Shown here: positions 20,639 to 24,229 of the stretch, one piece after another | Position numbering within the stretch: the stretch's first letter is position 1 | Layout of the letters: each line of letters starts with the position of its first letter | Notes under the pieces: generated by a model | Seen by the model: the letters and a program-made list of their open reading frames with translations, nothing else | Told to the model about the DNA's origin: nothing | Databases searched by the model: none | Position numbers and translations under genes: made by a program | Source of the DNA: Vogesella oryzae | Lineage (GTDB): Bacteria; Pseudomonadota; Gammaproteobacteria; Burkholderiales; Chromobacteriaceae | Direction of reading: 5' to 3' | Assembly (NCBI RefSeq): GCF_902829295.1 | Contig: NZ_CADEPL010000016.1 | Span: 62,001-126,000, forward strand | Length of the DNA: 64,000 bases

Positions 20639-22378
20639 TCAACGAACGGTTTCGGCCTTGGGCGGGTACCACAGCAGCGCAGCCTGCGGATCATGCGCGG
20701 CGGCCTCGGCCAATTTCACCGGCTGGCGGCCGGCGACAAAGTAGGGTGCCTGCGAGCGCGGCAGCGGCGTGCGGCCACGGATTCGGTCGGCGATCTTCTC
20801 CGCCATCATGATGGTGGGGGCGTTGAGGTTGCCGGTGGTGACCTGCGGCATGATAGAGGCATCCACCACCCGTAGCCCGCTCAGGCCGTGTACGCGGCCT
20901 TCGTTGTCTACCACCGCCATCGGGTCGCTGGCGTCGCCCATCTTGCAGGTGCAGGACGGGTGCAGTGCGGTTTCGGCGTGTTCGCGCACGAAGGCGTCGA
21001 TCTCGGCATCGCTCTGGATCATCATGCCCGGCTTGATCTCCTTGCCGCGGAACTGGTCCATTGCCTGCTGCGCGATGATCTCACGGGTGATGCGCACCCC
21101 GGCACGGAACTCGCGCCAGTCGGTGTCGTGCGCCATGTAGTTGAAGCGCAGGATCGGATGGTCGCGCGGGTCGCAGCTTTTCAGCTTGACGCTGCCGGTG
21201 CTGGGCGAGCGCATCGAGCCGACATGGCACTGGAAACCGTGTGCTTTTACCGGGTTGCTGCCGTCGTAGTTCATCGCCAGCGGAATGAAGTGGTACTGCA
21301 GGTTGGGCCAGGCGAAGCTCTCGTCGCTGCGGATGAAGCCGCCAGCCTCGAAATGGTTGCTGGCGCCGATGCCGGTGCCGCGCAGATACCACTCGATGCC
21401 GATTGGCGGCTTGTTCCACCACTGCAGCGCCGGGTAGAGCGATACCGGCTTGGTGCATTCGTATTGCAGGTACATCTCCAGATGGTCCTGCAGGTTTTCG
21501 CCCACGCCCGGCAGGTGTGTCACGCTGGCGATGCCCATCGCGCGCAGTTCGTCGGCGTTGCCGACGCCGGAGCGCTGCAGCAACTGCGGCGAGGCGATGG
21601 CGCCGTTGCTGACGATCACTTCGCGGCTGGCAAAGGCTTCGTGCCAGCGCCCGCCCTGCAGATAGCTGACGCCGATGGCGCGCTTGCCGTCGAACAGGAT
21701 GCGGTCTGCCAGCGCGCGGGTCTTCACCTGCAGGGTTGGCCGCTTGCGGGCGGTGTCCAGATAGGCCAGCGAGGTGCTGCAGCGGCGGCCGTCGGCGGTG
21801 GTGGTGCGATCCATCGGGCCGAAGCCTTCCTGGCGATAACCGTTCAGGTCGTCGGTGCGCGGGTGGCCGGCCTGCTCGCCGGCGGCGACGAAGGCGGCAA
21901 ACAGCGGCGAGATATTGGCTTTCGGGGTAGTAACGTGCAGCGGACCGTCACCGCCGTGGTAGTCATTGCCCCCCTTGTCGTAGGTTTCGGCCTTGCGGAA
22001 ATACGGCAGACAGTCGCGGTAGCTCCAGTTTTCCAAGCCTTTCATGCTGGCCCAGTTGTCGTAATCCATGGCATTGCCACGGATGTAGACCATGCCGTTG
22101 ATCAGTGAGGAGCCGCCGAGGCCCTTGCCGCGGCCCTGGGTCATGACGCGGTTGCCCATGTGCGGCTCGGGCTGGGTGGTGTAGGCCCAGTTGTAGGTGG
22201 TGCCCTGTAGCGGGTAGGCCAGTGCCGACGGCATTTGCGTGCGCCAGTCCAGCCGCCAGTCCGGGCCGCCGGCTTCCAGCAGCAGCACGCTCACGCCCGG
22301 GTCTTCGGTCAGTCGCGCCGCCAGTACGCAACCGGCGGAGCCGGCGCCAACGATGATGTAATTGAATTCCTGTTTCAT
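20639..22378 (-). CDS. betA: Choline dehydrogenase (GMC oxidoreductase)
   Basis: A 579-residue FAD enzyme oxidising choline to betaine aldehyde at the inner membrane. The FAD-binding beta-alpha-beta motif is [13 protein letters not shown] at residues 12-24; GMC signature 1 ([15 protein letters not shown]...) is near 82-97 and signature 2 ([15 protein letters not shown]) near 258. The active-site histidine region is HPSCTCKMG near 470 and [16 protein letters not shown] near 515. Length is slightly above the usual 556-562 owing to a C-terminal tail ([20 protein letters not shown]...). It lies after betB, separated by a Correia-like element. Confidence 0.94.
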
Positions 22379-22422
22379 GACCGTTCTCTTGCGGCAGGGC
22401 CGCGTTCAGGGTGGGCATAAGG

Positions 22423-22534
22423 ACGTGGCCGACAAAACCGCGCAGCGTACCTGAGCCAAGGCGCGCCGACGCAGACAGTACAAATCGTACGGCAAGGCGG
22501 CGCAACGCAGGATCAGGGGTTTTGTCTGCTACGT
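22423..22534. mobile_element. Correia-like miniature inverted-repeat element between betB and betA
   Basis: A 112-bp element with 17-bp imperfect terminal inverted repeats (ACGTGGCCGACAAAACC at the left; the right end reads ACGTAGCAGACAAAACC in reverse complement, 15 of 17 identical). The interior includes CGCAGACAGTACAAAT then CGTACGGCAAGGCG, which from memory closely matches the core of Neisseria Correia repeat elements; the termini differ from the Neisseria ones. It begins two bases from the betB stop and reaches to within 44 bases of the betA start, so it is co-transcribed in a betB-betA message and would form a long hairpin. Confidence 0.72.
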
Positions 22535-22535
22535 G

Positions 22536-23999
22536 TTACTCGTACGGGCAGGCGACGCCGCTCAGCTCCACATACACGCTCTTGAGCTGGGTGTAGTAGT
22601 CCAGCGTCGCCAGGCTGTTCTCGTGGCCGATGCCGGATTCCTTCAGCCCGCCAAACGGCATTTCGATCGGCGTGATGTTGTAGTTGTTGATCCAGCACAC
22701 GCCGGCCTGCAGCTTGTCCACCATGCGGTGGCCGCGGGCCAGGTCGCGGGTGAACACCCCGGCGGCGAGGCCCAGACGAGTGTTGTTGGCGCGGGCCAGC
22801 ACTTCGGCCTCGTCCTTGAATTTCAGTACCGACATCACCGGGCCAAAGATTTCCTCGCGCACGATGGTCATGTCGTCGTGGCAGCCGGCAAAGATGGTGG
22901 GGGCGATGAAGTGGCCACCCTCGCAGCCTGGTACTTCCACCCGCTGGCCGCCGGCCAGCAGGCTGGCGCCTTCGGCGACGCCCAGCTCGATGTAACGCAG
23001 TACGTTGGCCGCGTGGTCGCCGGAAATCTGTGCGCCCACCTGGGTGTCCGGCAGCATCGGGTCGCCAATCTTCAGCTTGCGGGTGCGGCTGACCAGTTTT
23101 TCCAGGAAGGCATCATGGATCGACTCGTGTACAAACACGCGGGTGCCGTTGGTGCAGATTTCGCCCTGGGTGTAGAAGTTGGCCAGCATGGCGGCAGAAA
23201 CCGCCTGGTCCAGGTCGGCGTCGTCGAAAATGATCAGCGGCGACTTGCCGCCCAGTTCCATGGTGACGCGTTTCAGCGTCTTGGCGGCATCGGCCATGAT
23301 GGCCTTGCCGGTTTCCACCGAGCCGGTCACCGATACCTTGGCCACGCCCGGGTGGGCGATCAGCTGTCGAGCCGGCGCGGAGCTGCCGAGGATGACGTTG
23401 AATACGCCGTCCGGCACGCCGGCCTCGGTGTAGATCTTGGCCAGCTCGATGGCGCTCATCGGGGTGAGCGAAGCCGGTTTGTAGATCATGGCATTGCCGC
23501 AGGCCAGTGCCGGGGCGGACTTCCAGCAGGCGATCTGGATCGGGTAGTTCCAGGCGCCGATGCCCAGGCACACGCCCAGCGGCTCGCGGCGGGTGTAGGC
23601 GAAGGCACCCTTGAGGGCGAATTGCTGGCCGTGGATGCTGGCGGCCAGACCGCCGAAGTATTCCACACAGTCGGCGCCGGACAGCACGTCAACTACTTCG
23701 GCTTCCTGGATCGGCTTGCCGTTGTCGCGCACTTCCAGCTCCGCCAGCTGGCGGTTGCGTTCGCGCAGCAGCTGGGCGGCGCGATGGAGGATGCGGCCGC
23801 GCTCGGCGCCGCTCATTGCCGACCAGATGGCAAAGCCTTGCTGGGCGGTTTCCACCGCCAGTGCCACTTCGGCATCGCCGGCCTGCTGTACGCGGCACAG
23901 CACCTTGCCGGTGGCCGGCTCCAGATTGTCTACCAGCGGCAGCGCCGGATTGTCGATGCTGCGGCCGCCGATATAACTGCACAGAATGGGGGTGTTCAC
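22536..23999 (-). CDS. betB: Betaine aldehyde dehydrogenase
   Basis: A 487-residue NAD(P)-dependent aldehyde dehydrogenase oxidising betaine aldehyde to glycine betaine. Visible are GAWNYPIQIACWKSAPALACGN (cofactor region near 150-172), KPAS near 178, the glutamate of ELGGKSPL near 250 and the catalytic cysteine of GEICTNGTR near 285. I choose the GTG at 23999 because GGAGACGAC precedes it and the length matches BetB (about 490); upstream in-frame codons give an unrelated extension. It is first in the betB-betA unit, divergent from purU. No betI repressor is present, so control may come from GbdR or elsewhere. Confidence 0.93.
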   Translation of the reverse strand: MNTPILCSYIGGRSIDNPALPLVDNLEPATGKVLCRVQQAGDAEVALAVETAQQGFAIWSAMSGAERGRILHRAAQLLRERNRQLAELEVRDNGKPIQEAEVVDVLSGADCVEYFGGLAASIHGQQFALKGAFAYTRREPLGVCLGIGAWNYPIQIACWKSAPALACGNAMIYKPASLTPMSAIELAKIYTEAGVPDGVFNVILGSSAPARQLIAHPGVAKVSVTGSVETGKAIMADAAKTLKRVTMELGGKSPLIIFDDADLDQAVSAAMLANFYTQGEICTNGTRVFVHESIHDAFLEKLVSRTRKLKIGDPMLPDTQVGAQISGDHAANVLRYIELGVAEGASLLAGGQRVEVPGCEGGHFIAPTIFAGCHDDMTIVREEIFGPVMSVLKFKDEAEVLARANNTRLGLAAGVFTRDLARGHRMVDKLQAGVCWINNYNITPIEMPFGGLKESGIGHENSLATLDYYTQLKSVYVELSGVACPYE

Positions 24000-24025
24000 G
24001 TCGTCTCCTAGCGGGTCGCCTGATG

Positions 24026-24112
24026 ATATGTCGGCATTGGGCCACGTCTGTGGCGGCGATTCCTGTCTGTTTCCGACATCAACCCATGTCGGCCCGACCA
24101 TGGCCGATGTCC
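24026..24112. promoter_or_regulatory. Candidate operator region between betB and purU with repeated ATGTCGG
   Basis: ATGTCGG at 24028-24034, an inverted pair CCGACAT (24073-24079) and ATGTCGG (24086-24092) separated by six bases, and a related CCGATGTCC near 24104. Such spaced inverted repeats in a divergent promoter suggest a regulator site; which protein binds (GbdR-type or BetI-type) cannot be told. Confidence 0.45.
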
Positions 24113-24229
24113 AGAAAAGGCCAGCCGGTGACGGCTGGCGACCAGTGTGCAACGTAGCAGCAGGCTAAGGTTGGCCGCAATGCCCCCAGCGGGCTGGTAA
24201 TTGAACGGCATGCACAAGGAGACAACACC

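Follow-up and report, generated by a model that had tools for sequence, protein, structure and literature searches.

We find that a 112-bp element between the betB and betA genes of Vogesella oryzae, in a stretch of 64,000 nucleotides (the window), is very probably an old non-autonomous MITE, in which a core homologous to that of the Neisseria Correia elements sits between the ends of an IS5-family insertion sequence (IS), and which would have been moved in trans into a TNA triplet. The element is not a Correia element in the strict sense, having no TATAGYGG ends and a TNA rather than a TA target; it and the Correia elements are members of one wider family.

According to the available text of a review, Correia elements were the earliest MITEs to be reported from prokaryotes (PMC10969869). 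A 2009 study, in the part available, presents the Correia repeat as confined to Neisseria and its mobilising mechanism as undetermined (PMC2649163). Passages of the same two papers report that RNase III acts on Correia RNA and that some copies serve as promoters (PMC10969869, PMC2649163). Among the best matches in the open-access literature, each available in part, we found neither Correia elements outside Neisseria nor the partner proposed here mentioned.

Results

The element in the betB-betA gap

The element occupies 22423..22534 (plus strand), with its core oriented as the GCAGACAGTAC..GTACGGCAAGG of Neisseria. The earlier note, made from the letters of the window, had delimited 112 bp with 17-bp inverted ends identical at 15 positions. 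Recomputing the ends in the window returned the same figures, with ACGTGGCCGACAAAACC on the left (22423..22439, plus) and ACGTAGCAGACAAAACC, read as the reverse complement, on the right (22518..22534, minus). Such ends at a 112-bp span were unique among the 63840 start positions tested in the window, and comparison with the ends in relatives identifies the same 112 bp as the family unit. The outer 9 bp of both arms have diverged from the family consensus, GAGCCGCTAACAAAACC; inside them lie the conserved ACAAAACC on the left and GGTTTTGT on the right. The TAA near the left end (22417..22419, plus) differs from the TTA on the right, so that the target duplication is eroded. We take the window copy to be an old one.

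Both neighboring genes run on the minus strand. Upstream of the element lies betB, for betaine-aldehyde dehydrogenase (22536..24152, the ORF as listed, whose true start may be internal; NF009725 above cut-off, TIGR01804 slightly under), and downstream, in the same direction, betA, for choline dehydrogenase (20639..22378; TIGR01810 above cut-off). The element had been thought to fill almost the entire gap between them, which overstates its share: it takes up 112 of 157 bp (22379-22535), 1 bp from the betB TAA and 44 bp from the betA ATG. The betB stop codon TAA (22536..22538, minus) adjoins the right end and is a probable remnant of the TNA target.

We looked for conservation at the same site, which the earlier note had named as an outcome that would speak against a mobile element. 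The sole congener with a close betB (92%), genome G001, has no element in its betB-betA gap, and about 80 bp of unrelated sequence stand in its place. On contig 1 of that genome (1771098-1771196), another copy lies beside a betB-like gene (72% over part).

In 22300-22700, a scan confined to the window copy predicted 0 sigma-70-like promoter sites, and no terminator-like site was found. The RNA of the plus strand is predicted to fold at -48.6 kcal/mol (z -3.27, equaled by 0 of 200 shuffles); that of the minus strand, which is the bet sense, folds at -45 kcal/mol with a modest margin (z -1.76, 8 of 200 shuffles equal).

The window also holds a short repeat. GCGGCCAAC occurs 60 times on both strands of the window (1.9 expected), 41 of these as TGCGGCCAAC, sometimes palindromic (e.g. 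16798, 18313, 19621, 56064). It resembles a DNA-uptake-type repeat of Vogesella; in its main text, the DUS dialect paper (PMC3630211) has neither these letters nor Vogesella.

The core is that of Correia elements and is conserved as a folded structure

The interior had been likened to the core of Correia repeats, and the element described as Correia-like outside Neisseria. Alignment bears this out. By blastn against two gonococcal chromosomes (records filed as plasmids in PLSDB), the window copy matched at 81.4% identity over element positions 35-103 (E 8e-8), with at least 40 match places on one chromosome and 38 on the other. The conserved core (22457..22508, plus) is common to Neisseria Correia elements and to copies in other Beta- and Gammaproteobacteria. 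It carries the apical hairpin GTAC-AAATC-GTAC (22478..22490, plus), flanked by two opposite purines, A22475 and G22492, which swap between A.G and G.A across copies. The window copy has the layout that we propose for a core superfamily: a variable but paired inner helix, conserved loops and the GTAC hairpin.

Scanning one genome per species with a 26-bp core pattern gave at least 112 stretches, 80 of them listed, which is no census. Among the matches listed were Neisseria, Vogesella, Chromobacterium, Aquitalea, Crenobacter, Andreprevotia and Chitiniphilus, as well as Comamonas, Acidovorax, Delftia, Cupriavidus, Undibacterium, Methylophilus and Thiobacillus. Beyond the Betaproteobacteria, the matches listed included Avibacterium, Candidatus Regiella, a Cardiobacteriaceae MAG, a gammaproteobacterial MAG and two Firmicutes MAGs; the last two may be contamination. 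In members of the Thiobacillaceae and another betaproteobacterium (L303, L339, L340), core copies lie no more than about 50 bases from the small SRP RNA gene.

Full flanks were available for 86 of 88 matches, in which the columns fixed by the pattern are uninformative on conservation. Beyond these columns, the C before GCAG was invariant, and (A)AGGC and AACG flanked the core. The arms were of 49 types less than 70% alike, and their columns mostly held below 0.4 bits (up to 0.55). Left arms were on average 61% paired with their own right arms, compared with 23% for shuffled arms; 4 of the 49 types were without such pairing. In the 7-bp inner helix, 71 distinct copies gave 69.6% standard pairs, against 46.1% when the right halves were shuffled (maximum 51.3% in 1000) and 26-35% when they were slid. 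The opposite purines by the GTAC hairpin were A.G in 61 of the 86 copies, G.A in 12, A.A in 10 and G.G in 3. In a set of 118 elements, of which 97 could be scored and 21 were unmatched, the counts were A.G 65, G.A 21, G.G 9, A.A 1 and T.A 1; both tests of this swap ignore relatedness. Within the A1 group (30 copies), two-sided changes affected 10 of 31 predicted pairs, and the covariation term of the group's fold was small (-0.28 of -31.93 kcal/mol). As far as the sequences go, this pattern speaks for selection acting on a single strand in its folded form, shared descent being a caveat.

We therefore weighed a reading in which the core is a structured RNA used by the host, as a small RNA or an mRNA stability element, and mobility is secondary. 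The two conserved internal loops, the helices between them that vary yet stay paired, and the purine swap from A.G to G.A in several lineages would fit such a role, as would the many copies at the 3′ ends of genes, where transcription would include them. On the other side, no Rfam family fell on the core: a search of window positions 22000-23000 gave 0 matches at E values up to 1, and none of 5 matches at 8 other loci touched it. Moreover, genomes of a single genus hold anywhere from 0 to 20 matches, so no single locus is needed. This reading is possible, although we lean against it as the primary account, and it is compatible with the MITE reading.

The family duplicates TNA and favors stop codons

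From 118 non-redundant elements, we scored 99 that matched the profile near both ends. The earlier note had proposed to check for a TA target duplication; what is duplicated instead is a TNA triplet, with identical flanking triplets in 61 of the 99 copies (TTA 35, TAA 23, TCA 3) and unequal ones in 38. Shuffling the flank triplets gave a mean of 27.3 and a maximum of 42 in 10000 rounds, and six shifted registers gave 0-2 equal triplets each.

Unoccupied sites were sought by joining the two flanks of a copy and searching 13 genomes with 12 such pairs. By coordinates, ten had an end-to-end unoccupied counterpart, two of them with gaps of 11-15 bases; an eleventh was partly aligned across the junction and one had no alignment. 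Fourteen loci for seven sites were then read base by base. Five sites, the counterparts of L042, L164, L170, L094 and L172, were clean, with a single TTA or TAA, and junction bases were altered at the other two (L165, L171). Empty sites, which had been proposed as a check, thus exist for the family; for betB-betA itself, the genomes of the genus offered no clean one.

The family also favors stop codons. In 35 of 95 copies (sites read as unoccupied), the left triplet served as stop codon for an ORF of 100 codons or more, and 71 of the 95 were no more than 60 nt from the stop codon of an ORF of 150 codons or longer; some of these sites are common to related genomes, and the counts are hence not independent. 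Three of the 35 stop codons were TAG or its complement, which is not TNA. TAA or TTA targets coincided with a stop codon in 26 of 63 cases; for such triplets elsewhere in these flanks, taken as controls, the figure was 76 of 862 (p 5e-12). Of the 35 stop-codon cases, 25 have the gene adjoining the element's right end, which is also the arrangement of betB. TAA and TGA both fit TNA, so that the duplication restores the stop; since the protein then stays intact, many copies can lie exactly in stop codons. The enrichment may reflect selection against coding insertions besides target choice.

Dispersed copies, TNA duplications and empty sites speak against the idea of a non-mobile element that serves the bet operon as a fixed regulatory or terminator structure. 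A strong hairpin at an operon boundary would suit it; the region from 22300 to 22700, though, is without a terminator-like site, and the gap of G001 is without the element. We consider this idea very improbable, and refuted as an origin. Later domestication of the copy in bet is possible.

The family is repetitive and has its own termini

The repeat number had been left to be checked, and the suggestion had been made of a divergent family with its own termini. Both the check and the suggestion came out in favor of a repetitive family, with inverted repeats in relatives of the form GAGCCGCTAACAAAACC...GGTTTTGTTAGCGGCTC. It is present in 51 of 101 genomes (own included) and, across the order, in 70 of 399 genomes, from 36 of 158 genera, with two candidates scored per genome. 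Eleven of 13 Vogesella genomes, the window's own included, had matches at E 1e-8. The own genome had 2 and the others 8, 0, 9, 20, 12, 12, 1, 0, 2, 3, 14 and 1; these are matches with fragments included, and one deleted copy may yield two. Phage records had no match to the element.

The own genome carries one full copy, that of the window, and one internally deleted copy. The latter (L191, about 1001-1078, contig 8 of G000) is without the GTAC hairpin, and a few bases past its end comes an ATG with an AAGGA-like site. Other variants were seen elsewhere. Copies L200 (at 757), L205 (966) and L206 (849) have a long core with about 21 extra bases (AAAACGAAGTTTCTGCGAAGC-like) inside it, comparable in kind to the long Neisseria Correia form. 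At L058 (G044, 1470-1851), three copies stand in tandem, in one orientation and almost touching.

Set against the Correia elements (CREE, nemis), the window family shares the core CAAGGCG..GCAGACAGTAC..GTACGGCAAGG..GCAACGC and the ACAAAA/TTTTGT of the arms. It also shares the 100-110 bp size class, the long hairpin, the existence of shorter forms and mobility. The outer ends differ, TATAGYGG with TA for Correia and GAGCC with TNA for the window family, and the IS5-type partner and the many copies in stop codons are features of the latter. For Correia, the available text of the 2009 study gives a 26-bp repeat of the pattern TATAG[CT]GGATTAACAAAAATCAGGAC, with variants ACCGGTAC and AAATTTAAA (PMC2649163), and TA target duplication is reported in passages of two papers (PMC2649163, PMC3898611). 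Neither ACGTGGCCGACAAAACC of the window nor the family's GAGCCGCTAACAAAACC fits this repeat, and ACAAAA is chiefly what they have in common with it. The proposal that the ends differ from those of Neisseria needs to be divided accordingly: the outer 9-12 bp do differ, but ACAAAACC is no replacement. Aligned with copies L119 and L315, it corresponds to the internal ACAAAA of the 26-bp repeat. By strict Correia measures, then, the window copy has the core and 0 predicted outward promoters, and its family has TNA instead of TA; it is 112 bp long, beside Correia lengths of 104-108 and 153-157 bp, and deleted and long-core forms exist. In the part available of a search in N. meningitidis, just a 46-bp NEMIS core was recovered (PMC2267715).

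The 81% core identity with gonococcal copies could suggest a true Correia element that recently left Neisseria by horizontal transfer. Copies in other Chromobacteriaceae genomes are much closer, up to 94-96% over 94-98 bp matched; copies are spread across the order; and GAGCC ends with TNA differ from Correia. Such a transfer is very unlikely.

An IS5-family element carries the same ends

The reading as a MITE calls for a source of transposase. PF13340 transposases from 61 genomes of the family Chromobacteriaceae gave 30 loci, seven of which carry the element's ends on a complete IS of 845-864 bp, plus one that is degenerate. At L241, both ends are identical over 17 bp to GAGCCGCTAACAAAACC; L245 and L264 have one such end each, identical to the family consensus, and the remaining IS ends differ from it at 1-3 of 17 bp. 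Order-wide, the same IS group appeared at 4 of 29 loci (L383, L384, L389, L402), which belong to other families. The transposase has the domains DUF4096 (PF13340) and DDE_Tnp_1 (PF01609) in two overlapping frames, and on the IS5 model NF033580 the second frame scores above and the first below the whole-protein cut-off. The target is alike as well. Among the seven intact ISs of the family, TTA is duplicated in L237, L264 and L245 and TTAA in L248, and three have unequal flanks of TTA and TAA; three of the four order-wide ISs have equal TNA triplets. IS5 subgroups with TNA duplications and GAG ends are known.

The likely source of transposase, judged from sequence, is accordingly an IS5-family IS of about 863 bp from the same bacterial family, with ends GAGCCGCTAACAAAACC. 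It is like the element in its terminal 17 bp (0-3 differing) and in TNA-type duplication, and unlike it in having a transposase (in two frames) and no core; the end sequences compared showed no likeness beyond the ends. The window's own genome has no PF13340 transposase, and the two PF13340 loci of the genus (L247, L255) are without the element's ends; it is from other genera, therefore, that we infer the partner. The window copy has no detected IS partner in its own genome, and the copies there look orphaned. In one complete genome, no long end pairs lacking the core were found among the matches listed.

A REPIN-type repeat, with a RAYT tyrosine transposase as its mover, is very unlikely, despite a superficial likeness in the paired palindromic halves around a central GTAC hairpin: the target duplication and the IS5-type ends are what a DDE transposase would give.

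IS630 was also considered as the partner in Chromobacteriaceae and set aside: PF13358 occurs in 8 of 61 genomes, and 13 of 30 loci were without the element's inverted ends.

A second IS5-type set of ends, AGAACCTGTTCACGATCT-like, was met in Chromobacterium-type genomes and shares stretches with Correia-type copies (L040, L043, L205, L206, L223, L225); at L251 (918-1767), an IS with AGAACCTGTTCACGATCT-like ends has a TAA duplication.

In Neisseriaceae, IS5 ORFB was found in 1 of 80 genomes (L265, with GAG-type ends TTAAGAGTCGCTAACAAAA), and the genus holding Correia copy L119 had none. Comparing the arms of other lineages with the IS5 ends of the 29 order-wide loci gave no match within 2 of 15 bases, the GAGNNGCTAACAAAA group excepted, so that end-swapping among IS5 groups is without support here.

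IS630-type ends in Neisseria and other hosts

TATAGT or TATAGC is the start of most copies in Neisseria and of those in Regiella and Avibacterium. In a Neisseria-genus genome, an IS630-family element beside another IS (L405, 385-1268) has the ends TATAGTCAATCC. Among 951 plasmid records, 4 of which were examined, its relatives likewise have TATAGT ends, TATAGTCAAA (Acinetobacter), TATAGTTAAA (Moraxella) and TATAGTAAAA (Serratia symbiotica), and a Fukatsuia relative yielded no inverted ends. An IS ending exactly in the classical TATAGTGGATTAA was not found; ends of the L405 type match it in part. One core thus seems to be carried by IS5-type ends in one group and by IS630-type ends in another, the IS630 half being the weaker.

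Discussion

The proposed course of events is as follows. In Chromobacteriaceae, the arms would be the terminal inverted repeats of an IS5-family IS (GAGCCGCTAACAAAACC), whose transposase would act in trans to insert the element at TNA triplets and duplicate them. Insertion into a stop codon would rebuild the stop and keep the protein intact. The window copy would have landed in or beside the TAA of betB, between betB and betA, and the IS would later have been lost from this lineage.

The likeliest role of the window copy is that of an RNA hairpin lying between betB and betA, subject to RNase III processing or protection, if the analogy with Correia holds. The betBA transcript would then form a long hairpin directly after the betB stop, which RNase III would cut or hold, as has been published for Correia/nemis. 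The effect would be to give the betB and betA messages different fates, not to start transcription.

Known systems offer partial parallels. In the available part of one survey, similarity between the ends of MITEs and ISs is described as not looked for or not found, RUP of Streptococcus pneumoniae excepted (PMC2229807). RUP is likewise a MITE, proposed there to be moved in trans by IS630-Spn1 with matching ends; that pair is of the IS630/TA kind and ours of the IS5/TNA kind, and we liken the two by description alone. For Correia in Neisseria, IS1106 of the IS5 family has been suggested on other grounds, according to the text available (PMC3898611). BRE, as described in the available text of Hot et al. 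2011 (PMC3110155), is a repeat of about 90 bp from Bordetella and Comamonadaceae suspected of mobility; nemis is named there just as one more repeat. BRE resembles the present family in being repetitive, in its size, in its genera (Acidovorax and Delftia also have the core here) and in being described in tandem, like the three copies at L058. It differs in that section 14 of that text names no transposase, target site or Correia homology (PMC3110155). Compared by description alone, BRE is probably an earlier sighting of the core superfamily.

A wider reading extends this to all hosts, and we hold it to be slightly more likely than not. The Correia core would be an old folded nucleic-acid module that sits on ends belonging to two or more unrelated families of transposases, the ends changing while the loops stay constant, with a benefit of the core common to all hosts. 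One group would be IS5-type (GAG, TNA), in Chromobacteriaceae and other Burkholderiales, and the other IS630-type (TATAGT, TA), in Neisseria, Regiella and Avibacterium. As the ends change and the loops do not, the conserved part would not be what the transposase binds. If this is true, the benefit of the core would lie with the host, for example as an RNA signal for protection or processing.

With one core present in many genera, and an autonomous IS of matching ends in one branch, the question of what moves these elements becomes testable, and with it a second one, why the ends change and the core does not. The family follows a neat target rule, in which a 3-bp duplication restores the stop codon, and it opens transposition and the effects of RNase III to study in harmless bacteria.
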